Part shown: positions 2,347-25,187 of the stretch, piece after piece
How positions within the stretch are numbered: the stretch's first letter is position 1
Layout: each line of letters opens with the position of its first letter
DNA from: a virus
Direction: 5' to 3' (one strand)
DNA: 25,187 nucleotides
IMG/VR virus record: IMGVR_UViG_3300021225_000030
Coordinates: 1 to 25,187 of that record
Notes under the pieces: model-generated
Seen by the model: only the letters and a program-made list of their open reading frames with translations
Told to the model about the DNA's origin: nothing
Database searches by the model: none
Made by a program: the position numbers and the translations under genes

Positions 2347-4329
2347 ATGTTTTCAAGCAATACAACCCAAGTCAGCAATGCAGTAACGTACATCGAGGAC
2401 GTATTTTCAACGTACGTCTATTCAGGTAATGGCTCTACACAGACTATCACGAATGGCATTGACTTGGCTGGTAAAGGTGGTTTAGTTTGGGCAAAATGTA
2501 GAACTGGAGCATATTCACATATGCTTCAGGATACTGTCAGAGGCAGTTATAAATACATTCAAAGTGACAATACAGTAGGTCAAAATAGTAATCCATTATT
2601 TGATTGGTTTAAATCATTTAATAGTGATGGATTTACTGTTGCCTATACGCCTTCATATGGCCCTGTACTTAATGACCCAATCTTAAATGCAAGTGGTCAA
2701 ACGTACGCTTCATGGACATTCCGCAAGCAACCAAAGTTCTTTGATGTTGTGACTTTTACTACTGCTGGAGACGGTAGCGCCACAGTAAATCATACTCTTG
2801 GCTCAACAGCTGGAATGGTAATCATCAAGGGAACTTCTGCAAGTGATTGGTTAGTCTATCATCGTAGCCTTGCAAGCACATCAAATTACTTGGTTTTGCA
2901 ATCTACATCTGCTGCGGGAGATTATGGATCATCTTGGATAACAACTTCTAGTACACAAATTACATTCCCGTCTGGAGGTCTTCTTGCAGGTGGTTCAACT
3001 TATGTTATGTATCTCTACGCCCACAACGCAGGAGGCTTTGGTCTGACTGGTACAGACAATGTGATTTCGTGTGGGAGTTACACAGGTAATGGAACTACTG
3101 TTGGCCCTGATGTGAACTTAGGGTATGAGCCACAGTTCTTGATGGTTAAGAATACATCTGCCGTTGGTAGTTGGTTTATGTGGGATTCCATGCGTGGAAT
3201 TACAGCAGATGGTTCAGTACAAAACTTAACTGCAAATGCTTCAACTGCAGAAACTACTAGCAGTTCTGCAATGTCAATTAACGCTACTGGATTTAGCCCA
3301 AGGTCGCTTGTATTTAGCGGCTCAGGCTCAACCTACATCTACATAGCCATTCGTAGAGGCCCAATGAAAGTGCCTACGAGTGGAACGAGTGTGTTTGCGC
3401 CTGTTGCTTACACAGGAACAAACGTAGACAACAGATTGGTAAATACAGGAATCGTCACAGACATGACGATGGCGCGTATAAGGACTGCTTTGTCTACTGG
3501 AAGTTTCTATACAGCGGATAGATTGCGTGGCGATTACTTTATTGGTACTGCTGTAACAGACGCAGAAGCTACGGACGCTGATTCGTTTATGACGCCTACT
3601 GTTGGTTATGGCAATTCATTCTCTGCAATGAATGGTTTTGGTGTTGGCAATGATGCGACAAGACAGCTAAACCAATCGTCAACATCGCAACTTGCTTACG
3701 CATTCCAACGCGCCCCTAGCTTCTTTGATGAGGTTTGCTATACGGGGACAGGAGTTGCTCGCACGGTCAATCACAACTTGGGAGTGGCTCCAGAGTTGAT
3801 CTTGTTGAAATGCAGAAACGCTGTTGCGTTCTGGCCTGTATATGCTGCTCCGCTGGGTACTACTAAGTACTTGTCGTTGAATCAAGTCAATGGAGCAAGC
3901 TCAGACACTGGCGGCGCGTACTGGAACAACACATCACCAACTAGCTCGGTATTTTCTCTCGGTATTGGTGGCCCAGCGTCAAACTCGAACGGAAATACCT
4001 ACGTCGCTTACCTATTTGCAACCTGTGCTGGTGTTTCCAAAGTAGGAAGCTACACAGGCACAGATGCCACTCAAACAATTAACTGCGGTTTTTCTGGGGG
4101 TGCGCGTTTTGTACTAATTAAGAAAACAAACGGGACAGGTAATTGGCTTGTTTGGGATTCAGCCAGAGGTATGATTTCAGGTACTGACCCATCATTAAGA
4201 CTAAATTCCAATCTTGCTGAACAAAACTCAGACGATGTTTATGCAATAGCAGGTGGCTTTCAACTTGTTAGCGCTGCTGGAGAGATAAACGGGCTTGGCG
4301 ACACATACATTTATTTAGCAATCGCATAA
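2347..4329 (+). CDS. Large tail fibre/adhesin with internal duplication (660 aa)
   Basis: This Gly/Ser/Thr-rich beta protein has no signal peptide. It consists of two copies of a ~325-residue unit. FFDVVTFTT at residue 131 matches FFDEVCYTG at 459. DTVRG at 62 matches DRLRG at 391. WDSMRG at 279 matches WDSARG at 603. The first unit ends STYIYIAIRR and the second DTYIYLAIA. Within each unit, smaller domains recur (YTGNGTT..., G..P.FLMVKN, W.VWDS.RG) of the type annotated in marine phages as DUF7483-like, lectin-like domains; that link is from memory. The gene directly precedes a tail assembly chaperone, which supports a receptor-binding role. Much of 2470-3340 looks more A/T-rich than its neighbours. 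Confidence 0.75.
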   Translation: MFSSNTTQVSNAVTYIEDVFSTYVYSGNGSTQTITNGIDLAGKGGLVWAKCRTGAYSHMLQDTVRGSYKYIQSDNTVGQNSNPLFDWFKSFNSDGFTVAYTPSYGPVLNDPILNASGQTYASWTFRKQPKFFDVVTFTTAGDGSATVNHTLGSTAGMVIIKGTSASDWLVYHRSLASTSNYLVLQSTSAAGDYGSSWITTSSTQITFPSGGLLAGGSTYVMYLYAHNAGGFGLTGTDNVISCGSYTGNGTTVGPDVNLGYEPQFLMVKNTSAVGSWFMWDSMRGITADGSVQNLTANASTAETTSSSAMSINATGFSPRSLVFSGSGSTYIYIAIRRGPMKVPTSGTSVFAPVAYTGTNVDNRLVNTGIVTDMTMARIRTALSTGSFYTADRLRGDYFIGTAVTDAEATDADSFMTPTVGYGNSFSAMNGFGVGNDATRQLNQSSTSQLAYAFQRAPSFFDEVCYTGTGVARTVNHNLGVAPELILLKCRNAVAFWPVYAAPLGTTKYLSLNQVNGASSDTGGAYWNNTSPTSSVFSLGIGGPASNSNGNTYVAYLFATCAGVSKVGSYTGTDATQTINCGFSGGARFVLIKKTNGTGNWLVWDSARGMISGTDPSLRLNSNLAEQNSDDVYAIAGGFQLVSAAGEINGLGDTYIYLAIA

Positions 4330-6026: not shown

Positions 6027-6428
6027 ATGTCAACTTCAGCGCAATATGCGTCAACCCCCAAAGTAGGCTCAGCCCTACTTACCACAGCGGACACCTCGTT
6101 GACCGCACCTACAACTGTCGGAACCGTCCTTTCTGCGGGTGCTTCTGGTACACGTATTGACTACATTGATGTTCAGGGCGTCGCAACTACTGTGGCCGGT
6201 CTGGTGAACTTGTTTATCTATGACGGTTCTAATTACATCTTGTGGCAGCAGATTCCTGTGCAGGCAATTACGTCAAGCACAACTGTCCCAGCTTTCTCAT
6301 CGGTTATTTCAAGCAACGGTAACGCTAACGTGATGCCTTTGACTATTCCAACAGGCTACTCCTTACGTGCAACAGTAACAACTGCACAAACAGGCGTTCG
6401 AGTAACAGCTTACGGAGGTGACTTCTAA
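6027..6428 (+). CDS. Virion structural protein, beta-rich (133 aa)
   Basis: The start follows AAGGAG. The protein starts MSTSAQYASTPKVGSALLTT and contains RIDYIDVQGVATTVAGLVNL, FIYDGSNYILWQQIPV and a closing TAYGGDF. The alternation of small and hydrophobic residues suggests a beta sandwich. The I-x-x-I-x-V-Q...L-F-I-Y-D-G pattern is recurrent in phage proteins near the tail tip; I know no precise function. Its stop overlaps the start of the glycine-rich adhesin by one base (TAATG), so the two are probably translated together and may form one structure. Confidence 0.6.
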   Translation: MSTSAQYASTPKVGSALLTTADTSLTAPTTVGTVLSAGASGTRIDYIDVQGVATTVAGLVNLFIYDGSNYILWQQIPVQAITSSTTVPAFSSVISSNGNANVMPLTIPTGYSLRATVTTAQTGVRVTAYGGDF

Positions 6429-7849
6429 TGAACAAAGGTATGTATGGGTTTGGTCTGCCACCCAATATGGCAACCCGTGTACGTCCACCACGCTGGAATC
6501 AAAGTCAAGTTTTGACCACTGCTGGCGCGTTTACATTCACTGTTCCTCAGAATGTCTACCAAGTTTTCTTTTTAGCCGCTGGTGGCGGTGGAGCTGGAGG
6601 CGGTGGTAATAACTCTAGCGCCACTGTTTCTGCTGGCGGCGGTGGCGGAGGTGGTGGTTGGGCGCAGGGGATTTTAGATGTAATTCCCGGTCAAACTATT
6701 ACAGGAACAATTGGAGCGGCAGGAACTTGTGCTTCAGCAACATCTAGCGGCGGAGCAGGCGGAACAACGTCGATCGGCACTGCTATTTCTTGCACTGGTG
6801 GTTCAGGTGGCACGTTAGCGTCTGGATCCAACTCAACATCTAGTGGCGGAGCTGGTGGTGCTGCCACAGTTTCTGCAACTTTAAGAGGTTTATTGACTGG
6901 TACTGGTGGTACTGGCGGCTCAGTAAGTTCTTCGGCTAGTGGCATTAACTACGGTGGCGGTGGTGGTGGTGGTTTGAGTGGAACAGGTGGATCTACTTCA
7001 ATTACCAGTACTGGACAAGCAAGCTCAGGCGGTGGCGGTGGTGGTTGGTACGGTAATGGTGGTTCTTGTACGGCTACCACTACTGGTTCTGTTGCCGGAG
7101 GCGGTGGGGGCGGCGGTTTTTACGGAAATGGCGGCTCTGTTGCTTGTAACGGATCACAAACAAACGGCGGATCTGGAGGTGGTGGTGGCTACTTGGGGAA
7201 CGGCGGATCAACACGCAATACCAGCACAAATATTGGCGGTGTCTCTGGTGGCGGTGGTGGTAGTGAATCTTCAGCTATGGATATTTTTAATATAACTAAT
7301 CCGTCGGCTGGATCATCTGTTCCGTCATTTGGCGGCGGCCCGTACGGGGGTAATCCGGGAACGGGTGGTGCTACCAATATTCCACAAGTAGCACCAACCT
7401 CTGGTGGATCCGGATTGTCCGTAAATGGTGATTCGCCATTTTTGCTGTACGCCAATAACGTTATTCCAATTGGCGGTGGTGGTGCAGGCGGTCAGCAGCT
7501 GGGAGGTTTGTTTATGGGGACGTCCGGCGGCTTTGGTGGTGGTGGTGGTGGCACTATGTATGGTTACGCCCCCGGCGGATCTGGCGGCTATGGTGGCGGT
7601 GGCGGTGGCGCTGGAACTACAAACTCTACAGTCGCGGCTGGTGCTGGTGGCTTTGGCGGCGGCGGAGGTGGCTGTGCCGGCCTAGGTGGAAATGGTGGCT
7701 TTGGCGGTGGCGGAGGTGGCGGTGGAGTTAGCAATGGCCCCGGTGGAAATGGTGGCTTCGGCGGTGGTGGTGGCGGTGGAACTGGCGGAGGTTTAGGCGG
7801 TTCAGGTGGTAAAGGTGTTGTAGCCTTTGCTTGGACAGAAGGGTACTAA
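6428..7849 (+). CDS. Glycine-rich adhesin-like tail protein (473 aa)
   Basis: The start (TAATG overlap) follows GGAGG. The N-terminus MNKGMYGFGLPPNMATRVRP precedes a small beta domain (SQVLTTAGAFTFTVPQNVYQ, then VFFLAA). Next comes a long series of Gly tracts (often 4-8 in a row) from residue ~52 to ~465. One less Gly-rich island lies near 285-345 (MDIFNITNPSAGSS...FLLYANNVIPIG). The end is GKGVVAFAWTEGY. This architecture is that of phage Gly-rich domain proteins. Salmonella phage S16 gp38 shows how Gly tracts can form a packed polyglycine core that displays receptor-binding loops. Whether this protein folds the same way is inference. The gene lies just before a chaperone-like gene. Confidence 0.7.
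   Translation: MNKGMYGFGLPPNMATRVRPPRWNQSQVLTTAGAFTFTVPQNVYQVFFLAAGGGGAGGGGNNSSATVSAGGGGGGGGWAQGILDVIPGQTITGTIGAAGTCASATSSGGAGGTTSIGTAISCTGGSGGTLASGSNSTSSGGAGGAATVSATLRGLLTGTGGTGGSVSSSASGINYGGGGGGGLSGTGGSTSITSTGQASSGGGGGGWYGNGGSCTATTTGSVAGGGGGGGFYGNGGSVACNGSQTNGGSGGGGGYLGNGGSTRNTSTNIGGVSGGGGGSESSAMDIFNITNPSAGSSVPSFGGGPYGGNPGTGGATNIPQVAPTSGGSGLSVNGDSPFLLYANNVIPIGGGGAGGQQLGGLFMGTSGGFGGGGGGTMYGYAPGGSGGYGGGGGGAGTTNSTVAAGAGGFGGGGGGCAGLGGNGGFGGGGGGGGVSNGPGGNGGFGGGGGGGTGGGLGGSGGKGVVAFAWTEGY
6580..7825 (+). repeat. Low-complexity GGN-rich DNA coding polyglycine
   Basis: Dense runs of GGT/GGC/GGA codons form many imperfect short direct repeats such as GGTGGCGGTGG. Gly codons are varied, which limits but does not remove the chance of slippage or recombination. 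The stretch is wholly inside the adhesin gene. Confidence 0.7.
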
Positions 7850-13581: not shown

Positions 13582-16500
13582 ATGAGCCTTCACGTACTAG
13601 CCGATCACATGGCATCCAAAGGTCGCAACGGCGATTCGATGCTTGTCCACATGACCCCCGGAGAAGTCGCTGGACTTCATGCACTTGCCATTAAACATGG
13701 CGGTCAGTTGACCATCAACCCAGAAACAGGTTTGCCTGAAGCTAACTTCTTGAAGAAGTTGTTGCCAATGTTGGCAGGCGCTGCGCTTAATTTCTTTGTT
13801 CCCGGCTTGGGCGCTGCTGTTGGCGGTGCGTTTGGTCTTGGTGCTGCGGCGGGTACGGGTATTGCTGTGGGAGGTTTGACTACCTTGGCTACAGGTAGCT
13901 TGTCTCGTGGTTTGATGGCGGGTCTGGGTGCGTACGGCGGTGCAGGTTTGACTGAAGGTTTGATGGGTGCAGGAGCGCAAGAAATTGCCGCTACGACTGC
14001 ACCTGTGGCCGAAAATGTTGCTGGTGCTTCTGTACCACCCATAGAGCAAGTCAATCCCTCTAACTTCACAATGTCCAATGCGGACAAGCTAAGCACCGGA
14101 ATTCAAGGCTTAGGTACAGAAGCAGGCCGTGCTTCTGCTTTAGCCAATATGGGTGGAACATCTGGCGCTCTTAAACTTGCAGGAGCAGCCGCCTCCCCCA
14201 TCATGGCTGACGCAATGGTTCCCACAACCACAAAGATGCCAACAACATTGAGTGGCCCTGCGTATATTCGCCAAAAACTATACGATCCTTACACACAGAC
14301 TTACAAGTCTTTAGCGCCTGTTGAAGCCGACAAGTGGGGCAGCCGCAATTTTTCAGATGCGTACACAAACCCACAGACAGGGGAAATAGCTACGCTCCAA
14401 CCCCGCGCTCCTTCCAATATGGCGACAGGCGGTATTGTGGCCTTGGCCGCTGGTGGCGACTACACTACTGTGCGGGAAGATGGCAGCGTTGACTACGCAG
14501 CGCCTACTACTTCGCCTGCGGTAATGTCTGCCGCTGACGCACAAAAATTGATTGAAGCCCAGTACGCCACAATTGGGCGTTCAGGTGTTGGTACAGGCGC
14601 AAATCAAATTGACGAAGCTGGCCTCAATGCGTGGACTAATGCGTTGGTAAGCGGTGAATTTAAGCCTGAAGACCTTAGCTCTCGTTTTGGTACGGCGGTT
14701 AAAGATTACATGGCACAGAATCCTGATGACCAGTACACCAGCTATGTAAAAGATTGGCGTGCCCAGCAAGCTGGTACGGGCACAGGAACTGGCACAGCTA
14801 CAACTGGTGGCGTTTCTACTTTGGATACAACAGGCGGCGGAACTGCTGCCGCCACAGACACTTCTGGTATAGCCACGTTAAACAACACGGGCGCTGCCAC
14901 AGGCACTACGGGCACAAACCTAAACGCGTTCTCAAACGCATACACCGGCGCAAACATTAACGACTACATTGCTAATAACAATCTAGATGCGGCTGGTATT
15001 GCTGCCGCAGCCAAGCAGTTTAACGTTGACCCTGCACAAATTACTGCGGCTCAAAATGCTCAGAACATTGTGACCAACGTGTACCGCAACGTACTTGGTC
15101 GTGATCCCGATCCTGCCGGCCTTTCTTGGTGGACTAACCAGATCATGAACGGTGATCGTACAGGTCAAGAGATGTACCAAGAATTCTTAAAGAGCGCAAA
15201 AGGAATCTTAGGCTCCAGAGGAACCGGAGAAATCGGCAACTGGAATCTGACGCTTGACGAAGCCGCAAAAGAGTATGGTGGCTACAAATCTGCCGAAGCC
15301 AGAGGTATTGCCGATGAGTGGGTACGCAACACGCTTGGCCGTGAAGTAACTGATGCCGACCGTCAGCAGCAATGGTACAAAGACGCTATGAACAGTGGTG
15401 TCATGAACACTGTCGGTAAGGCCGAAGATATTTATAGCAAGTTTAAAAACTTTGCTTACGAAAATGCTGGCGCTACTGTTGCAAAACAAATTGCAGACGC
15501 TAAAGCGTTGTTGTCTTCTAAAGGATTGACAGAAGCAGATGTGCTAAAGCAAACAGGTAAAACTATTGCTGAGCTGGTTGGCAGTGGTATGAACCTTGAA
15601 GCGGATCTGTTTAAAGCATCCCAGTTGCGCAAGCCCGGAGAAAAAGTTGGGTTTGACTTTAGTACGATTACAAAACCTAAACTTGCTAATACGTTTGCCG
15701 GCAGCACCGCTGTGGATAGAACCGTCACTAATCCTTACGGCAACGAAACTAACCCCGGAGATTTGACGTACAACACAGACGGTACAGTTACTGTTCAGCC
15801 AAATATTCCGTACCGTCCATATGGCGGTTTCTCTGGCATGGGCGAAGTTAAAGACGCTTACACACGCGGTGGCGGCAGTTTAGGCTACACATCTCCTGTT
15901 GTTAAAACAGCGGCTGAGCACGAAGCTAGGTACAACAGACTGACTGGCGATTCGCAGGCGGCTTACAACTACCTGATGGGTAAAGGCGCCAACCCTGTGC
16001 AAAGCGTTGCAGCAAGCAGTCCTACAGGAATTATGCGTCCATATATGACGGGCGGTATGAAGTACACGCCTAAGTTCTTGAAGACCAATCCAGACGGCAC
16101 TGTTTCTTCTAGCACTACAAACCCAAATGCGCCCAAGTCTGGCACTACGCCGTCAGCGCAATCAATCAACGTTACAACGCCAAGCGGGGCTGTAGTAACT
16201 GCAATGCTCGGATCTGACGGCGTTTACCGTACATCTGATGGCGCTAAATACGATGTGACTGGTCAACCAATTGTTGCTGAAGCGGCTGGCGGTGGTTTGA
16301 TGGGCTACGCCGTAGGCGGCGGTCTGGGTACTTTGGGTGGCTACTCTGATGGCGGTCGTTTGCTCAAAGGCCCCGGTGATGGCGTGTCTGACAGCATCCC
16401 TGCAACGATTGGCGCTAAACAGCAACCCGCACGACTTGCCGACGGCGAGTTCGTAGTACCTGCACGTATTGTGTCCGAGTTGGGCAACGGCTCAACAGAT

Positions 16501-16617
16501 GCAGGCGCTAAGAAACTTTACGCCATGATGGATCGTGTGCAAAAAGCACGCGGCAAGACCACAGGCAAAAATAAAGTAGCGGCCAACTCCCGCGCTGACA
16601 AATACCTTCCCGCTTAA
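13582..16617 (+). CDS. Large internal-virion-type protein with DUF4214-like repeats (1011 aa)
   Basis: The ATG follows GAGAGG. Near the N-terminus are LVHMTPGEVAGLHALAIKHG and GQLTINPETGLPEANF, a conserved phage segment, then a Gly/Ala-rich hydrophobic region (about 56-130) that could insert in a membrane. A Thr/Gly linker (397-452) precedes a DUF4214-like unit at 495-541 (VYRNVLGRDPDPAGLSWWTN). A weaker second copy lies at about 573-625 (WVRNTLGREVTDADRQQQWY). The C-terminus holds GPGDGVSDSIPATIGAK, ARLADGEFVVPARIVSELGN and AKKLYAMMDRVQKARG, typical of phage proteins of unknown role. MA.GG.V motifs lie at ~279 and 902. An ejection or core role is inferred from order. Confidence 0.65.
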   Translation: MSLHVLADHMASKGRNGDSMLVHMTPGEVAGLHALAIKHGGQLTINPETGLPEANFLKKLLPMLAGAALNFFVPGLGAAVGGAFGLGAAAGTGIAVGGLTTLATGSLSRGLMAGLGAYGGAGLTEGLMGAGAQEIAATTAPVAENVAGASVPPIEQVNPSNFTMSNADKLSTGIQGLGTEAGRASALANMGGTSGALKLAGAAASPIMADAMVPTTTKMPTTLSGPAYIRQKLYDPYTQTYKSLAPVEADKWGSRNFSDAYTNPQTGEIATLQPRAPSNMATGGIVALAAGGDYTTVREDGSVDYAAPTTSPAVMSAADAQKLIEAQYATIGRSGVGTGANQIDEAGLNAWTNALVSGEFKPEDLSSRFGTAVKDYMAQNPDDQYTSYVKDWRAQQAGTGTGTGTATTGGVSTLDTTGGGTAAATDTSGIATLNNTGAATGTTGTNLNAFSNAYTGANINDYIANNNLDAAGIAAAAKQFNVDPAQITAAQNAQNIVTNVYRNVLGRDPDPAGLSWWTNQIMNGDRTGQEMYQEFLKSAKGILGSRGTGEIGNWNLTLDEAAKEYGGYKSAEARGIADEWVRNTLGREVTDADRQQQWYKDAMNSGVMNTVGKAEDIYSKFKNFAYENAGATVAKQIADAKALLSSKGLTEADVLKQTGKTIAELVGSGMNLEADLFKASQLRKPGEKVGFDFSTITKPKLANTFAGSTAVDRTVTNPYGNETNPGDLTYNTDGTVTVQPNIPYRPYGGFSGMGEVKDAYTRGGGSLGYTSPVVKTAAEHEARYNRLTGDSQAAYNYLMGKGANPVQSVAASSPTGIMRPYMTGGMKYTPKFLKTNPDGTVSSSTTNPNAPKSGTTPSAQSINVTTPSGAVVTAMLGSDGVYRTSDGAKYDVTGQPIVAEAAGGGLMGYAVGGGLGTLGGYSDGGRLLKGPGDGVSDSIPATIGAKQQPARLADGEFVVPARIVSELGNGSTDAGAKKLYAMMDRVQKARGKTTGKNKVAANSRADKYLPA

Positions 16618-16627
16618 GGAACAGATC

Positions 16628-17620
16628 ATGGCAGATCCAACACAAACAAACATAACGCAGACCTCCATTCCTGACTACGCTAAGCCGTACGTTGAGGAGT
16701 TGTTGGGCAGTGCGCAGGGGCTGACCGACATTAACCAGAACCCCTACATGCAGTACATGGGGGATCGCGTTGCTCAGTTCACACCTTTGCAGCAGCAATC
16801 GTACGAAAATGCTGGTTTGATGCAGACTGCGCCCCAGTTGCAAGATGCAACTGCTTTGGCAGGTATGGCGGGTTTAGGTGCTTTGAATACCCAGTACACG
16901 TTTAAGCCTTCTGACTTCTCATCCGCCAATATCCAAGGCATGATGAACCCCTACATGCAGAATGTGGTGGATCGCCAGCAACAAAACGCTCAACGTCAAG
17001 CGGATATTGCAGCGCAAGCACAACAAGCACAAGCTGCCCGTTCAGGTGCTTTTGGTGGAAGCGGGGACTACATCATGCGTGCGCAGGCCGCAGGTAACTT
17101 GGCTCGTCAAAAAGGCGACATCCAAGCCCAAGGTTTGCAAAATGCTTACAACCAAGCGATGCAGCAGTTCAATACGCAGTACCAACAAAACGCTCAGCAG
17201 CAACAGTTTGGTGCGGGTCTGGGACTGCAAGGTTTGCAAACAGCTAATACCGCCGCAGGCAATTTGGCCAATATTGGTCAAACACAGTACGGCCAGAACA
17301 TGGGCATCTTGGGTATGCAGAACCAGTTTGGTGGCCAGCAGCAACAGCAAGTACAGAATGTACTAAACAACCAATACCAAGACTACTTAAATGCTCAGAA
17401 CTACCCATACAAGCAGTTAGGCTTCATGTCCGACATGCTCCGCGGTTTGCCTTTGACTCAGCAGTCTTCGACTGTTTATCAAGCAGCGCCTTCTATGGTT
17501 TCACAAGCAGCAGGCTTGGGCACTGCGGCAATCGGTTTAAGTAAGTTTATGGCCAAAGGCGGCGCGGTTGACGAGCGTCCTGCTGGTCTGGCAGACTTGG
17601 CTATCTATAACATGGGCTGA
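16628..17620 (+). CDS. Gln-rich internal-virion-type protein (330 aa)
   Basis: The ATG follows AAGGAA. The protein opens MADPTQTNITQTSIPDYAKP and YVEELLGSAQGLTDIN, then TPLQQQSYENAGLM. The middle is helical and very rich in Gln, Ala and Asn (AQAQQAQAARSGAFGGSGDY, later NTQYQQNAQQQQFGAG). It closes with YPYKQLGFMSDMLRGLPLTQ and, near the end, FMAKGGAVDERPAGLADLAI. This layout is a recurrent phage protein next to other large virion genes, with no enzymatic motif. Long amphipathic helices fit the inner core proteins of short-tailed phages. The MAKGGAV piece belongs to a motif shared with both neighbours. Confidence 0.6.
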   Translation: MADPTQTNITQTSIPDYAKPYVEELLGSAQGLTDINQNPYMQYMGDRVAQFTPLQQQSYENAGLMQTAPQLQDATALAGMAGLGALNTQYTFKPSDFSSANIQGMMNPYMQNVVDRQQQNAQRQADIAAQAQQAQAARSGAFGGSGDYIMRAQAAGNLARQKGDIQAQGLQNAYNQAMQQFNTQYQQNAQQQQFGAGLGLQGLQTANTAAGNLANIGQTQYGQNMGILGMQNQFGGQQQQQVQNVLNNQYQDYLNAQNYPYKQLGFMSDMLRGLPLTQQSSTVYQAAPSMVSQAAGLGTAAIGLSKFMAKGGAVDERPAGLADLAIYNMG

Positions 17621-17625
17621 AGAAC

Positions 17626-19212
17626 ATGGCATTACCTAACTCAGAAAAAATTACGTCGCAAATTGCGACACTGCCCGATGCTGCGCTGAAGCAGATGGCC
17701 ATGATGCACAAGAACGATCCGTACGTTCTTCCCCTGATTATTTCTGAAGACAGCCGTCGCAAGCAGATGCGCCTAGCTGCACAAGCGCAGATGGCCGGAA
17801 TGCCCCAACCCAAGGTAGCGGATGCTGCTGTAGCCCAGATGGGCGCTTTGCCTGAAGACCAAGGTATTGGCTCTTTGCCTGCACCTAACATGCAGAACAT
17901 GGCCGATGGCGGTATTGTGGGCTATGACGAAGGCGGTATGGCCGAGGGCGGTGGCCCAGCAAGCCAGTTGGCTTTCAACAACGAACCTGTTATGCGCATG
18001 GCTGGTGGTGGCGCTGTTGGCTACGCCGATGGTGGCTGGCTTGAAAAATACTTGTACAGCAACATTACGCCTGCGGAAAGAGCACGCCGTGAAGCACTGG
18101 CTGCTGAAGCAGAAGCTGGCCGTCAAACTGACTCCCCTCTTTCGTACGAAGAAGAGAGAGCGCGGAACATGCAGCAGGTTGCCAATCAAGGCTATGTGCG
18201 CACCGATCCCCGTGCAACGGGGACAATGCCTTCTGGAAAACAACAGTTGGCCCCCGGTGCGGCTCCCGGTGCGCAGCCTAGCGGCCAGCCGCCTGCTCCT
18301 ACCCCTGCTGCACAGCAAGGCTTGGGTTCGATTGCACCCGCTAAGGCAATGACTGCTGAACAGGCCAAGGCTCAAGCCGGAGAGTTTTCCGATTTTGAAG
18401 AATCTCGTACTGCGTTGAAAAAATTGCAGTCCGATCAAGAATCTCAGAACGCTCGACTGCGCTCGACGTTAATGGACAACCTGCCCAAGACTCCTGCAAT
18501 GCAAGGCTTGGAAAAACTGCTGGACAAGCAAGATGCTGAAACTGGTGGTGAAAAAGACAAAGCCGCTGGTTTGGCGCTGCTCTCTGCGGGTCTGGCGATT
18601 GCTGGCGGCTCATCTCGGTTTGCCTTGCAGAACTTGAAAGAGGCTATTCCTGCTGTGACGCAGTACGGCGACGCGCTCAAAGACATCAAGAAGATGGAGC
18701 GTGAGAACATGAAGATGCGCGGCGAGATTGAACAAGCCCGCCGTGCCGAAGCCCGTGACGACACCAAGCTCAAACTCCAGTTGGAAGAGAAGATTGGCGA
18801 TCGTCAAGACAACATTAACAAACTTGGTGTGGAGCTCACTTCCAAAATTGCTGGCGTTAATGCAGATGTTGCGGCCAAACTTTGGACTACTTCCGCTACA
18901 AATGTGAGCCACGAAAAAGTTGCAGGCATGCAAGCAGGCGCTGCGGCTAATGCAGAGCTTAACAAGTACATGCAACTGGGATCGGCTGCGCCGGGTAGCC
19001 CACTCCTTAAAGGATTCGGGCTGTTCAAACAGGAAGCTATGGAGCCACGGATGTATTCTGAATACGTCAAACTGGCAACAGACCCAATGAAGAGCGATGA
19101 GTTTCTAAGAAAATACCCCACTTTTGAAATCTATAAAGCGGGCATGGGTGGCGGTCAAGGTCAGATTTATTCTGACAACAACGTGAATCCAAACGCTGTA
19201 CGTACGCGGTAA
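17626..19212 (+). CDS. Virion-associated protein with coiled coil and MAxGG motifs (528 aa)
   Basis: It begins 5 bases after the previous stop with MALPNSEKITSQIATLPDAA and a helical segment (LPLIISEDSRRKQMRLAAQA). Two Gly motifs follow: NMADGGIVGYDEGGMAEGG at residues 91-109 and RMAGGGAVGYADGGW at 124-138. A Pro/Ala/Gln-rich linker (about 195-245) leads to charged coiled-coil helices (about 250-430), broken by a Gly/Ala hydrophobic patch near 305-325 (GLALLSAGLAIAGGSS). The end is GQIYSDNNVNPNAVRTR. No catalytic motif is seen. The position between the Gln-rich protein and the giant polyvalent protein suggests an internal or ejected virion protein. Confidence 0.6.
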   Translation: MALPNSEKITSQIATLPDAALKQMAMMHKNDPYVLPLIISEDSRRKQMRLAAQAQMAGMPQPKVADAAVAQMGALPEDQGIGSLPAPNMQNMADGGIVGYDEGGMAEGGGPASQLAFNNEPVMRMAGGGAVGYADGGWLEKYLYSNITPAERARREALAAEAEAGRQTDSPLSYEEERARNMQQVANQGYVRTDPRATGTMPSGKQQLAPGAAPGAQPSGQPPAPTPAAQQGLGSIAPAKAMTAEQAKAQAGEFSDFEESRTALKKLQSDQESQNARLRSTLMDNLPKTPAMQGLEKLLDKQDAETGGEKDKAAGLALLSAGLAIAGGSSRFALQNLKEAIPAVTQYGDALKDIKKMERENMKMRGEIEQARRAEARDDTKLKLQLEEKIGDRQDNINKLGVELTSKIAGVNADVAAKLWTTSATNVSHEKVAGMQAGAAANAELNKYMQLGSAAPGSPLLKGFGLFKQEAMEPRMYSEYVKLATDPMKSDEFLRKYPTFEIYKAGMGGGQGQIYSDNNVNPNAVRTR

Positions 19213-19286: not shown

Positions 19287-22200
19287 ATGGCTAACTACAT
19301 CAAACTGCCGGACGGCTCATTCTTTCCCGTTGAGGAAGGCGAAGACTACTCATCCGCTATGCGTGCTGCGTACGCAAAGTATCCGGAGGCGTTTGGTGTA
19401 TCAAGGCAAGAAGAACCCAAGAAGGGCGGACTTGCTGGTGCTTTTGGTAAAGGCATTGAGTCGGCCATATCCAGTGGCCGCACAGCCCTCGAATCGTTGA
19501 CCGGAACCCCAGAAGAAGCCGCGCAAGCTGGCCTCAAGCGCCAAGAAAAGCTGGGCGAAAAGTACGCTGACCAAGTCAGTCTTGAGAAGGTCAAAGAAGC
19601 GTACAGCAAAGACGGCATCTTGTCCGCAGCCAAGGAAGCGATTGGCCAAATCCCCGCAGCGATTGCTGAACAAGCACCTAACTTGGGCGCTACGCTTGGT
19701 GGTGCTCGTGCTGGCGCGGCCCTTGGCTCATTGGCTGGCCCCGTGGGTACAGTCGTTGGCGGTATTGCAGGCGCAGCAATCCCTACCCTCATTCAACAGT
19801 TTGGCGGTAACGTTGAGCGTCAAGCACAAGAGCAGCTTGCCCGTGGTGAGCCGCTAGACATTAGCCGAGGAGCCGCCGCAGCCGCTGCCGTTCCTCAAGC
19901 CGCACTAGATGTGGCAGGCACATTCATTCCTTTTGGTGGCCAGCTCGTCTCTAAACTGACTGGCATCCCCGCCAAGGCACTGACCATCGGTGCTGGTAAC
20001 GCGGCAAAACTTGCCGAAGAACGCCTAGCCGCTACGCTTGCCAAAGGCACAGCCACGGGTGCGTTGGCCGAAGTGCCAACAGAAATTGCCCAGCAGATGC
20101 TGGAGCGGGCACAGGCAGGGTTATCCCTAACTGATAAAGATGCCTTGGAAGAGTACGGCAAGACCGCCTATCAGGTTGGTCTGCTGGCTCCGTTGGGCGC
20201 TGCTGGCCGCTTGTCTGAAAAGGGGGCCGCACGGCAAGAAGTTGCCGCCAAGAAAGCAGAAGAAAAGATTGCCGCTGATACAGCCGCATTTAAAGAAGCA
20301 GAAGCCAAGGCCACAGCGCCTGAAGCACTGACTCAACTGGACGACCAGTATCGGGCTGCCCAACAGCAAATGGCCGCTATGCAACAAGGTTTGGTCAAGC
20401 CAACCAAGGGAGCTACGCCAGAAGAGAAAGCCGCCTACACCGAATCTAAGAAAGCCTTTGACACCTTCCGCAAGGAAGAGTTCATGCCCCTGAAGCAAGA
20501 GTACGAGAAGCGCAAACCGCTGATCGACAAGATGCAGGAAGAGCGCCAAGCCGCGTTAGAGGCGCAGGCTGGTGCGGAGCAGCCCACAGCCCCACGCTTT
20601 GCAACCACAGACATCCCCGGTGCAGCGCCGTATTCACAGCAGCCCGTCGTTCGTTTGATGGAGCAGCAAGACACTCTGCGCCAGCAGTTTGGCCAGTTGG
20701 AAGACCGTTTGGCCGCAGCCACACCGGAAGAGTACAACCAGATCCACCCCGAGTACGAAGCTACCAAAGCACGCTTGGCTGAGATGGGCAGTGCCATCGA
20801 GGAGCGCGGTGGTGTGTCTGTGTCGGAGAAAGACTTTGCCAAGCAGTTGGCGTCTGAGACCAAGAAGTTCCAAGACTTCCAGCAAAAGGGTGAGTTTGAC
20901 AAAGCCAAGGAGCAAGCTGACAAGCTGGCTGACCTGAAGAAACGCCAAGCATTGTTCGATGAGATGCGTGCTGCCCGTGAGCAGCGTGGCCAGACTGGTG
21001 AGTTGTTCACCAAAGAACAAGCGCCTTTGCCCCCAACGGAGAAGCCTGAAGGCCCAGCGCAGCCAACCACTGTGCCCGGCATCGCGGCTACGCCCCAAGA
21101 AGCGATGAAGTTTGAACCGAAAGAGGTTCTGACCCAGTACGAGCGCCCAGAAGGTTACGGCGTCAAGCCCGTGAAAGAAAAGGTCACACTGCCAAGCCAG
21201 CGTGATCCACGGCAGCTTGACATCTTCAGCGACGAAAACATTACCCGCACAGGCATGACTCCCGCAGAAAGGGAAGCCGCTGACCGCCGCGCTGCTGAAG
21301 CCGTAAATGCTCCGGCTGGCCGGATGACGCAGTTTGTTAAGGATGCGGAAAAGCAGCGTTTGGCTCGGGCACTAGACACCCGTTTGAACCTTGCCGGAAC
21401 AGAGGCCAAGCGCACAGCTACGCCAGAGCAGTACGACACAACGATGGAGCAGATTAAGACGCTGCATAACAAGGTTGTGAAAGCCCAAGGCAACGCCAGC
21501 AAGTCTTACTTGCAACAGTTGTTTGACTTAGCTGACCAAGAGAACGCTTTGGTAGACAGCATCAACACTGCTCAAGAAGCCGGTAGATCAACCACACGTT
21601 TGAATAACCAACTAAACGGCGTCCGTACACGCTACGACAGGATTCTCAAAACGCATGTTGAGCCTGCCCGTAAGAAGATTGAAAGCCTGTACCAAAGCAT
21701 GTACAAGGCTACGCCTGCGGCCAAAGCCAGCGTTGTGGCCAAGGAAAAGAAAGAAGCTGCGGAAGCACAGCTTGACACCATCAAGATTCGTGACGAAGAA
21801 GGCAAAGCTGTTGGCGCAAAGGTAAGCCGCGCAGTCAAGACGGCCAAGCGTATCCAGTCTGGGGATGTCCGCAAGGAAGCCGAGATGTCTCCCCAGATGC
21901 GCGAACTTGCTCGTGGCTTAGGTATGAAAGAACCGGCCTACGACGAGTTTGGCGAACAAATGACCAAGCAGTTTACTGCGTTGAAGAAAAAGTACGGCGC
22001 TGATTCTTTGGAAGCGACTACGTTCCAATTAAAAATGAAAGATGCGGCGGAAGCAAAAGCACTGGAGCTTGGCCGCAAAACGCCTGAGTACAAGGCAACG
22101 CTTGCAGAACAAACTGACATCGTACGTGAGGCGCTGGCCCAAAGCAAACAAACCGTGCCTTCTAAACGCGGTGTGCAAGAAACCCGTAAAGTCCGCCGTG

Positions 22201-25187
22201 CTGCCTCTGAAGAACGTACTGGTTCTCCTGAAAGCCGTGCAGCCACCGAGAAGAAAGCTATACGTGAGGCAGGCTCACGCCTCACCAAAGCGCAGGTCGA
22301 GGAACTCGTCAAGGCGGCGTACGACACCGATGGTGGCACAGCCTACCGCACCCGTGAGACAGAAGGCGAGAGTGTTGATGCACGAGCCGCCGCTGACTTC
22401 ATGGAAAAAGTGCAGAGTAAATTACCTGAGAACGTGAAGCTGGTATATGCCGCTAACCCCGGCAAGATCCCCATGCGTTTGCTCAAGCAGATGTCCGTTG
22501 AGGGCGTTGACCCAACCGAAGCCATGGTGCAGGGCGCTGTGTTCAGTGACGGAACGGTCTTGGTGGTGGGCGATCAGCACGTTGACTTGAAGGACTTGGA
22601 AGCTACGGTTCTCCACGAACTCGTTGGCCACTACGGTATCGACACCATCATCGGCACTAAGCGCCTGCAAGAGTACGCCAACAAGACAGACCTGCGTAAG
22701 CTGGCCGAAGACATCGGCGGTGAGAAACTCCTGCGTGAAGTCACAATGACTGCACAGGCTAACGCAGCCATGGGCAGAAGCGAAGAAGTCCAAAAACTTC
22801 AGGTCTTGCGTGAGATCATTGCGCACACCGAAGAAGCGCGTGTGACCGAGAGCTTCAAACAAAAGGCTGGTCGCTGGCTCAAAGAACTGATCGGCATGGT
22901 TCGCGCAGGTTTGCGTGACATGGGCTTTACTTCTTCTCCTCTACTATCAACATCTGACGTTTTCTATTCTTTGCGTCAGTCTCGTCAGGCGTTTGCGTCC
23001 AAGCGTATTGGCCCCTATCGCGCAGCCGATGGCCAGATCGCTTTCCGTACCAAGGTCGACCCCTCAGTTAAGTCTTCGTTCATTGCAACCAAGCCCGCGA
23101 TCAAAGATCGTTTGTTTGGAAACTTTTTTGGCTTGGCCGGTCGCGTGCAGTTGGTTGACCAACACGCAGCTATCTCTGAAGCGTTCAAACGTGGCGCTGA
23201 CAAGGGTATCATCTCCTCTGCCGAGGCGCTCAATGGTGAATGGTTGCTACGCTTTGGCCAGAACGTAAGCCAGTACGCTCAGCAGTTCTTGACCCACGGC
23301 TCTGTGAAGTACCAGACTGTGACACGTAACGGTGTGACGGAAAAGATTTTCATGAGCGACAAAGGCCCGAACATGACCGATGCGGCCGAGGCTTTGCACA
23401 AGGGTAAGTTTGATAACGACACCGAAGCCGAAGCCTTTCTGACAGCCTACGTTGCCGGGCAGCGTGCCGATGCTGTGGGTTGGGACAAGCTGAACTACAA
23501 AGACCCCGCCGCAGTCAAGCGCGAGTACCAAGAGCGCATGGCTGAATTGCAAAAGAACCCCGAGCAACTAGCCGCCGTTCAGGAAGCCGCCAAGATTTAC
23601 CAAGAGTACAACAACGGCTTGATTGATTTCCTTGTACAGACAGAAGAGATGACCAAGGAAAAGGCCGAGGCGCTTAAGAAGATTCCGTACATCCCGTTCT
23701 ACCGCGTAGACGGCGACTCGCTCAACCTGTTTGTGGCAGGCGAGAAACCCATCCGTATTGGCAACATCAAAGACCAACCCGAACTCCAGCAACTGGTGGG
23801 CGGTGAAGATCAGATCATGCCAATCTTTACGAGTGCGGTACAGAACACTTTCATCTTGACCCGCATGGGCTTGCGCAACGCCATGATGAGAGACAACTCT
23901 TTCCTCTTGCACAAGCTCGGCATGGCCAGCAAGATTGGCCCCGGCATGGGCCCCAAGGGAGAGAACGTCGTACGCTTTAAGGTCAAGGGCAAGGATCACT
24001 TTGCTGTCATCGACACCGACAAGTTCGACATCCCCGCCGAGTTGGTGGTCAAGGGCATGGAAGGTATCAAAACTACCCTCCCAGCCGCTATCAAACTGAT
24101 GGGTTACCCCGCAGATATTCTGCGCAAGTTTGTGACCCGCAACCCTGCCTACGCTGTGCGTCAGGTTATCCGCGATCCTCTGAACGCATGGCTGACTACT
24201 GGCACAGACGCTACGCCTATCCTCAGTTCCATGAAGGAACTCGCTAGTATGGTGGCAGGGCGCAGCGAAGCTGAAGCCCAGCTTATGCGCACAGGCGCGA
24301 TCAGCAGCAACGTCTTTACAGGCAACGCTCGCGACATGGACATGTTCTTGCGTGACATCACCGCTGGTAAGTCTGGTTGGGAAAAACTCATGGCCAAGGC
24401 CGATGCGCTTGCCATGCAAGGCGATGCCGCTACCCGCGCTGTGATCTACAAAGAGTCCATTGAGAAGGGCATGTCCGAGCAGCAGGCACTGCTGCGTACG
24501 CTTGAGTCCATGAACTTTGGCCGCCGTGGTCTGTCGCCCAGCTTGCAGATGCTCTCGACTGTGATCCCGTTCTTCAACGCACAGATCCAAGGTCTGGATG
24601 TGCTCTACCGCGCTTTCAAAGGCCAGATGCCTTTCAATGAGCAACTCAAGATCAAAGAGAAACTGCTGCAACGCGGTATGTTCATGGCGCTGGGAACCAT
24701 CGCCTACGCCGCCGCTATGCAGGACGATGAGGCATACAAACGCGCTAAGCCAGAGGAACGCTACGGCAACTGGTTCATCTACGTTCCCGGCTTTGATGAG
24801 CCAATCAAAGCGCCTATCCCGTTTGAATTGGGCTACTTGTTCAAGGCATTGCCCGAAGCGATGTGGAACATGGCGGCTGGCGACGAGAAGGCGTCTAAAG
24901 CTACTGGCGGTTTCCTCAAACTCCTTGGCCAGTCCAACCCGTTTGGTCTGCCCCAAGCCGTCAAGCCTGTGGCCGAAGTGGTGCTTGGTAAGTCGTTCTT
25001 TAGCGGTGACATTGAGTCTGCCCGTGAGAAACAACTCCTGCCCAGTGAGCGCTATCGTGATAACACAACCGAGCTTGCCAAACTTATCGGGGCAGCAACG
25101 GCGAGTGAAACCGTCAAGAAGCTTACCGGCAAAGAAGGCATCACGCCTATCGAGATCGACTACCTCATCCGTGGTTACACGGGCGGC
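19287..25187 (+). CDS. Giant polyvalent/ejection-type protein, N-terminal 1967 aa (3' truncated by window)
   Basis: An open frame runs from ATG 19287 to the window edge with no stop. The start has no clear ribosome site; GGAAGA lies 18 bases away. It opens MANYIKLPDGSFFPVEEGED and YSSAMRAAYAKYPEAFG. A glycine-zipper hydrophobic stretch lies at about 132-173 (AGAALGSLAGPVGTVVGGIA). Long charged helices fill about 320-1000. At 1110-1115 is HELVGH within ATVLHELVGHYGID, a HExxxH zincin-like motif. N1619-P...VRQVIRDPLNAW and later NFGRRG (1743-1748) with QMLSTVIPFFNAQIQGLD match the domain called LPD38 in polyvalent phage proteins. Such proteins are thought to be packaged and injected with phage DNA. 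Protease activity is inference. Confidence 0.8.
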   Translation, partial: MANYIKLPDGSFFPVEEGEDYSSAMRAAYAKYPEAFGVSRQEEPKKGGLAGAFGKGIESAISSGRTALESLTGTPEEAAQAGLKRQEKLGEKYADQVSLEKVKEAYSKDGILSAAKEAIGQIPAAIAEQAPNLGATLGGARAGAALGSLAGPVGTVVGGIAGAAIPTLIQQFGGNVERQAQEQLARGEPLDISRGAAAAAAVPQAALDVAGTFIPFGGQLVSKLTGIPAKALTIGAGNAAKLAEERLAATLAKGTATGALAEVPTEIAQQMLERAQAGLSLTDKDALEEYGKTAYQVGLLAPLGAAGRLSEKGAARQEVAAKKAEEKIAADTAAFKEAEAKATAPEALTQLDDQYRAAQQQMAAMQQGLVKPTKGATPEEKAAYTESKKAFDTFRKEEFMPLKQEYEKRKPLIDKMQEERQAALEAQAGAEQPTAPRFATTDIPGAAPYSQQPVVRLMEQQDTLRQQFGQLEDRLAAATPEEYNQIHPEYEATKARLAEMGSAIEERGGVSVSEKDFAKQLASETKKFQDFQQKGEFDKAKEQADKLADLKKRQALFDEMRAAREQRGQTGELFTKEQAPLPPTEKPEGPAQPTTVPGIAATPQEAMKFEPKEVLTQYERPEGYGVKPVKEKVTLPSQRDPRQLDIFSDENITRTGMTPAEREAADRRAAEAVNAPAGRMTQFVKDAEKQRLARALDTRLNLAGTEAKRTATPEQYDTTMEQIKTLHNKVVKAQGNASKSYLQQLFDLADQENALVDSINTAQEAGRSTTRLNNQLNGVRTRYDRILKTHVEPARKKIESLYQSMYKATPAAKASVVAKEKKEAAEAQLDTIKIRDEEGKAVGAKVSRAVKTAKRIQSGDVRKEAEMSPQMRELARGLGMKEPAYDEFGEQMTKQFTALKKKYGADSLEATTFQLKMKDAAEAKALELGRKTPEYKATLAEQTDIVREALAQSKQTVPSKRGVQETRKVRRAASEERTGSPESRAATEKKAIREAGSRLTKAQVEELVKAAYDTDGGTAYRTRETEGESVDARAAADFMEKVQSKLPENVKLVYAANPGKIPMRLLKQMSVEGVDPTEAMVQGAVFSDGTVLVVGDQHVDLKDLEATVLHELVGHYGIDTIIGTKRLQEYANKTDLRKLAEDIGGEKLLREVTMTAQANAAMGRSEEVQKLQVLREIIAHTEEARVTESFKQKAGRWLKELIGMVRAGLRDMGFTSSPLLSTSDVFYSLRQSRQAFASKRIGPYRAADGQIAFRTKVDPSVKSSFIATKPAIKDRLFGNFFGLAGRVQLVDQHAAISEAFKRGADKGIISSAEALNGEWLLRFGQNVSQYAQQFLTHGSVKYQTVTRNGVTEKIFMSDKGPNMTDAAEALHKGKFDNDTEAEAFLTAYVAGQRADAVGWDKLNYKDPAAVKREYQERMAELQKNPEQLAAVQEAAKIYQEYNNGLIDFLVQTEEMTKEKAEALKKIPYIPFYRVDGDSLNLFVAGEKPIRIGNIKDQPELQQLVGGEDQIMPIFTSAVQNTFILTRMGLRNAMMRDNSFLLHKLGMASKIGPGMGPKGENVVRFKVKGKDHFAVIDTDKFDIPAELVVKGMEGIKTTLPAAIKLMGYPADILRKFVTRNPAYAVRQVIRDPLNAWLTTGTDATPILSSMKELASMVAGRSEAEAQLMRTGAISSNVFTGNARDMDMFLRDITAGKSGWEKLMAKADALAMQGDAATRAVIYKESIEKGMSEQQALLRTLESMNFGRRGLSPSLQMLSTVIPFFNAQIQGLDVLYRAFKGQMPFNEQLKIKEKLLQRGMFMALGTIAYAAAMQDDEAYKRAKPEERYGNWFIYVPGFDEPIKAPIPFELGYLFKALPEAMWNMAAGDEKASKATGGFLKLLGQSNPFGLPQAVKPVAEVVLGKSFFSGDIESAREKQLLPSERYRDNTTELAKLIGAATASETVKKLTGKEGITPIEIDYLIRGYTGG

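Follow-up and report, generated by a model that had tools for sequence, protein, structure and literature searches.

Introduction

Giant proteins that phages inject are common and, to our knowledge, have hardly been characterized. The systems closest to the protein considered here are the LPD38/DarB-like giants, such as Bcep22 gp75, JC1 gp69, PTXU04 gp25 and the protein of Vibrio phage 1.232.O. In the case of JC1, which was compared by its published description, 51 unique peptides of the LPD38 giant gp69 were obtained from CsCl-purified virions (PMC9144972). Knockdown of PTXU04_00025 (gp25) by CRISPRi-ART caused a large reduction in EOP, the gene being essential in the E. coli strain used (PMC11879866). 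A further comparison is offered by the podovirus ejection proteins (T7 gp14-15-16 and the N4/DEV virion RNA polymerase), which are large internal proteins with mosaic domains; a review of ejection proteins published in 2022 describes domain mosaicism in general (PMC8954989).

Zincins with an HEXXXH motif were reported in polyvalent proteins in 2017 by Iyer et al. (PMC5512222). The polyvalent MPTases described there comprise 12 clades, and it is proposed that the zincins process the polyvalent proteins. The same paper describes the N4 virion RNA polymerase as packaged uncleaved despite its zincin, with the zincin region needed for encapsidation. The HExxGH motif of the M49 dipeptidyl peptidase III is catalytic, both His residues and a downstream Glu binding zinc, and del-DPP III, with a shortened motif, is also zinc-active (PMC3268031, PMC5667867).

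In this study, a giant gene at the end of a 25,187-nucleotide virus record (IMGVR_UViG_3300021225_000030; the whole record is referred to as the window) was analyzed together with its relatives. Both the HExxxH spacing and the LPD38 polyvalent kind of protein have already been described. A protein family in which constant ends are combined with a near-fixed slot, a switching zincin type and swapped headers and cargo was not found in the literature, which was partly searched; in particular, a fixed slot with swapping was not found in the consulted sections of Iyer et al. (PMC5512222).

Results

Reading frame and gene neighbourhood

The giant gene begins with ATG and is free of stop codons over 1967 codons up to the record edge (19287-25187, + strand; ORF translation). 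Because the window is the whole virus record of 25187 bases, the 3' end of the gene is missing. Relatives were taken from a scan of IMG/VR, which gave 212 related stretches, 80 loci being retained, and three of these (L002, L003 and L004) have 85% identity to residues 1-1967 and a stop ~149 residues beyond, so that the window carries residues 1-1967 of a protein of ~2115 aa. A preliminary description of this DNA had reported a protein of at least 1967 residues in one frame and had called for the rest of the gene; the frame is real and runs off the contig short of the relatives' end, and the end of the gene can be seen in the 85%-identical relatives, although that of the window itself is absent. 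On the opposite strand, an open frame of 539 aa (23568-25187, -) overlaps the giant gene; it was rejected as a gene, since it spans only 167 aa in the closest relatives, and is probably a by-product of codon use. In one relative (L012, 9983-15052) the giant gene lies in two frames (509 + 1180 aa), either by a frameshift or by an assembly error. A scan of GTDB contigs for host inference gave no relative.

Directly upstream of the giant gene lies a gene of 528 aa for which no match was obtained (17626-19212, +), preceded by a DNA ejection protein homologue (16628-17620, +; phrog_4287, E=3.6e-13) and, further upstream, by tail fibre and virion structural genes and a lysozyme. In L025 the order is ejection protein, transglycosylase-domain protein (in the position of the 528-aa gene) and giant gene, past which primase/helicase, helicase, exonuclease and polymerase genes follow on the opposite strand. 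From the gene order in the window and in L025, the giant gene is therefore the last of the virion/ejection module. The ejection cassette also contains a 1011-aa protein (13582-16617) with DUF4214 and no other family.

LPD38 and the constant C-terminal core

The Pfam family PF18857 (LPD38) matches residues 1814-1967 (24726-25187, +) over profile positions 1-160 of 189, with E=4e-30 and 105.7 bits against a cut-off of 27, and by sequence the giant protein is an LPD38-type polyvalent protein. In the Pfam search with the whole protein nothing else came near significance, the PHROG matches, in the N-domain and the C-terminal region, were to families whose function is unknown, and no second enzymatic domain besides the zincin was recognized with Pfam, PHROG or NCBIfam. 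The LPD38 assignment made earlier thus stands; however, the motifs quoted in its favour, VRQVIRDP (1624), NFGRRG (1743) and IPFFNAQIQGLD (1760), lie upstream of the Pfam match, within a conserved C-terminal region of ~850 aa that exceeds the Pfam domain. This core (residues 1265-1967, 23079-25187, +, continuing past the contig) occurs in every full-length relative sampled, and a match to residues 1251 onward is present in 95-100% of the long relatives, of which 62 were compared.

The core, the giant size and the late-gene position are shared with the LPD38/DarB-like giants, whereas the window protein is short for this group, has a core that is ~25% identical to that of cultured members, and shows no recognizable methylase, helicase or transglycosylase domain; its layout of header, N-domain and cargo is that of an uncultivated subgroup. 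With the podovirus ejection proteins it shares an ejection cassette, membrane-prone helices, large size and domain mosaicism, although no similarity to the T7, N4 or DEV proteins surfaced in general searches. In Pelagibacter phage HTVC010P (L095, 7761-9275) the LPD38 core region belongs to a protein of 504 aa that has neither zincin nor cargo.

A zincin-like domain before the core

Conservation and modelling point to a zincin-like metallopeptidase domain at residues ~1030-1250 (22374-23036, +). HELVGHYG is present at residue 1110, as had been reported (22614-22637, +), and contains the predicted zinc ligands H1110 and H1115 and the predicted general base E1111, while ExxAxxxE (E1176-E1183; 22812-22835, +) carries the predicted third zinc ligand and a neighbouring acidic residue. 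HExxGH is kept in all 58 relatives that were retrieved with region 1010-1245 (blastp against ORFs of the fetched loci, the window's own copy being left out). In the alignment of the relatives H1110, E1111, H1115, E1176 and E1183 are invariant, the two Glu residues lying ~60 residues after HExxGH; since the rows of the motif alignment were picked by an HExx[GA]H pattern, independent evidence comes there from the downstream residues only. ExxAxxxE follows HExxGH by 46-106 residues in 58/58 relatives, compared with 8% of shuffled segments. Both motifs, 52-72 residues apart, were also found in Achromobacter phage CF418P1, two Bacteroides phages, Pseudoalteromonas phage Y3, Dolichospermum phage Dfl-JY45 and a Chromobacterium plasmid with phage genes. 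In the zincin region, no match to a Pfam, NCBIfam or PDB family was significant.

Relatives lacking HExxGH have a classic HExxH with an invariant EFxxE of their own. The HExxGH and HExxH family profiles gave no significant alignment (hhalign); the HExxGH profile matched the HExxH-type second domain of the Chromobacterium giant with 20 bits and a one-residue gap in the motif, a hint that the two domains may have a common origin. The giant in question, on a Chromobacterium phragmitis plasmid with phage tail genes (L082, 4405-16152), is 3915 aa long and has two zincins, HELLGH and HEMFH, ~230 residues apart.

In an AlphaFold model built with 65 sequences (model numbering), a helix (48-61) and three strands (68-71, 97-101 and 107-110) are followed by a helix carrying HExxGH (117-132) and a helix carrying the conserved Glu (182-199). 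The local pLDDT of these elements is ~62-85, the mean of the whole C-half model being 64. With moderate confidence, this order of helix, three strands and two helices corresponds to the zincin core, and the model that had been called for thus has each motif, in predicted zincin-type fashion, on a helix that follows a three-stranded sheet. The same core, with the HEXXXH helix followed by a helix with Glu, is given for the polyvalent MPTases in PMC5512222. When the 1132-aa C-half model was searched against the PDB (Foldseek, VIA-align), all matches were coiled or helical ones judged to be due to chance, and no fold was convincing. Small domains are frequently missed in fold searches with large helical models.

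The HEXXGH motif is shared with M49 dipeptidyl peptidase III, a two-domain exopeptidase of ~700 aa to which no sequence relation was found; the M49 motif EEXR(K)AE(D) follows 22-55 aa downstream, whereas the window protein has ExxAxxxE ~60 aa downstream instead, and no M49 chain appeared in the PDB profile or fold searches. In view of the HEXXXH zincins of 2017 and the catalytic HExxGH of M49, the spacing is not new. The catalytic status of the motif had been called open; the HExxxH domain itself is real, and its status is less open than was stated because the residues are invariant, zincin-type helices are modelled and the HEXXXH and M49 precedents exist, the activity being a predicted one. 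H1110, H1115 and E1176 would accordingly be expected to bind zinc.

A near-fixed slot with two types of zincin

HExxGH lies 984-1051 residues from the C-terminus in nearly all members that carry it. The HExxH sites at the junction lie at 974-1009, and another HExxH group at 1123-1850; in L076, HEVGAH is found at 1295. Cultured phages that were found through the C-terminal core, and not by motif, have their sites at similar distances from the C-terminus: HEIIVHYG at 1037 in PTXU04, HELVVHYG at 1028 in Vibrio phage 1.232.O, HEVLAHYG at 999 in Aeromonas phage ARM81mr, HEMAH at 1005 in VvAW1 and at 1000 in Vibrio phage 1.183.O, and HEAVH at 1056 in MinM2. In Erwinia phage PEp14, HEILHH lies further off, at 1137. 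Bacillus phage Pony, HTVC204P and HTVC010P, short members with the same core, have no zincin, and the domain is therefore not required in every system.

When the zincin type was placed on the tree of the core, seven changes were counted, compared with 12.8 for shuffled labels; five are forced by the starred branches, and L076, in which the motif does not lie in the slot, contributes one of the seven. On the C-terminal tree, a switch of the zincin type (HExxGH or HExxH) is thus needed at least 5-7 times.

Exchangeable header and middle

The protein begins with a header of ~40 residues (residues 1-40, 19287-19406, +) of type a (LPDG...YPEAF), which is predicted by modelling to be a beta-hairpin plus a helix. 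Unrelated headers b, c and d precede near-identical proteins in relatives, and four or more types were distinguished by regular expressions and inspection, with a minimum of ten changes on the tree. For example, L059 and L066 share 84% identity up to a point shortly upstream of the start codon and 92% past the header, with header types c and a, respectively. Types c and d also start cultured Vibrio phage proteins of the LPD38 giant family, and type c has matches in 21 phage records; the 37-aa type-a header had no match in cultured phages.

The header is followed by a constant, all-helical N-domain (residues 44-320, 19416-20246, +) with a glycine-zipper hydrophobic helix pair at ~122-185. The hydrophobic zipper proposed near residue 150 was recovered as a glycine-rich stretch at ~131-175, with a Kyte-Doolittle maximum of 1.5 at 151-169 and several conserved glycines.

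The variable middle, or cargo (residues 321-1000, 20247-22286, +), is charged and probably helical or coiled; longer, unrelated segments of up to ~2200 aa take its place in other members. Residues 51-300 are matched in 77-82% of the 62 long relatives, and residues 351-1000 in 27-57%. The middles of 48 members fall into 11 clusters. Searches of the middle of the window protein against Pfam, PHROG and NCBIfam gave no domain with a known function, and those of the middles of long members nothing convincing. Between L081 and L076, DNA identity is 92% in the N-domain and 95% in the 12 kb that start with the core, while their middles (~1,770-1,950 residues) are unrelated, with no match below E=0.19. 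Header and middle are thus exchanged between otherwise near-identical viruses.

Discussion

The explanation that we consider likely is that the protein is a giant internal virion protein with a constant frame and exchangeable parts, which would be packed in the head and ejected together with the DNA. The frame would consist of the glycine-zipper N-domain and the ~850-aa LPD38 core and hold header, cargo and zincin. The helices of the N-domain, according to the model, may insert in the membrane, and the zincin would cut close to the point where cargo and core meet, either inside the head or once entry has taken place, and thereby free the cargo or remodel the giant protein. The family and the delivery reading are the firm part of this explanation; that the window protein itself is packaged and ejected is inferred by analogy with JC1 gp69. 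Self-cleavage by the zincin, taken alone, is finely balanced and leans slightly towards not occurring.

The protein had been proposed specifically as a host-takeover protein. This was not borne out, since the middle has no recognizable effector domain, an ejection cassette lies upstream and PTXU04 gp25 is essential; by analogy, that essentiality speaks no less for a basic function in assembling the virion or in bringing the DNA into the cell. It would nevertheless be conceivable that the zincin is an effector cleaving host proteins, for example those of defence, after injection, the rest serving for delivery. Such a role is raised by Iyer et al. for some MPTases (PMC5512222), repeated exchange of the zincin type would suit an arms race, and PTXU04_00025 is among the genes that, when expressed, were toxic in E. 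coli or interfered with infection, two outcomes that were not separated (PMC11879866). However, a near-fixed site right before the core suits self-processing better, as a free effector could sit anywhere, and the essentiality of the PTXU04 homologue needs no counter-defence role; we therefore judge the host effector to be unlikely.

Rather improbable, too, is a dead zincin whose fold is retained to help packaging without cleavage, although the N4 virion RNA polymerase, uncut and with a region needed for encapsidation, is a precedent (PMC5512222): metal-binding and base residues and the Glu pair that are invariant in very divergent members, with two types of spacing, would be unusual for a relic. 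The lack of any significant Pfam, NCBIfam or PDB family could also mean that HExxGH is there by chance or belongs to an unrelated helical domain, but this is hardly credible, since 58 relatives and distant phages keep the motif, in the latter always with ExxAxxxE 52-72 residues downstream, and the elements of the model follow the zincin order.

In the likely case of an ejected giant with a constant frame, the constant ends and a zincin slot ~1000 aa from the C-terminus serve as landmarks for the start and end of the cargo. Furthermore, a metagenomic protein is linked to an essential and genetically accessible gene of an E. coli phage: PTXU04 gp25 contains the region matched by the window protein and has its HExxxH + ExxAxxxE site, so that the processing proposal of 2017 is directly testable. 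More tentatively, and with more doubt than confidence on our part, the frame may be a two-ended delivery device in which the fixed zincin slot releases interchangeable cargo and the ~40-residue header is a packaging/ejection signal. If so, the cargo of any member could be read between two fixed landmarks, and header swaps would bring to light a code by which proteins are loaded into the heads of phages.

Other genes of the window

A 473-aa frame at 6428-7849, extremely glycine-rich with GGGGG runs and without a Pfam match, is perhaps a tail-tip adhesin. The 660-aa protein at 2347-4329 has two DUF7483 stretches and belongs with virion structural and tail fibre families. Between tail-fibre genes, the gene at 1067-1768 has four NUMOD3 motifs and a weak GIY-YIG match and is likely to encode a homing endonuclease.
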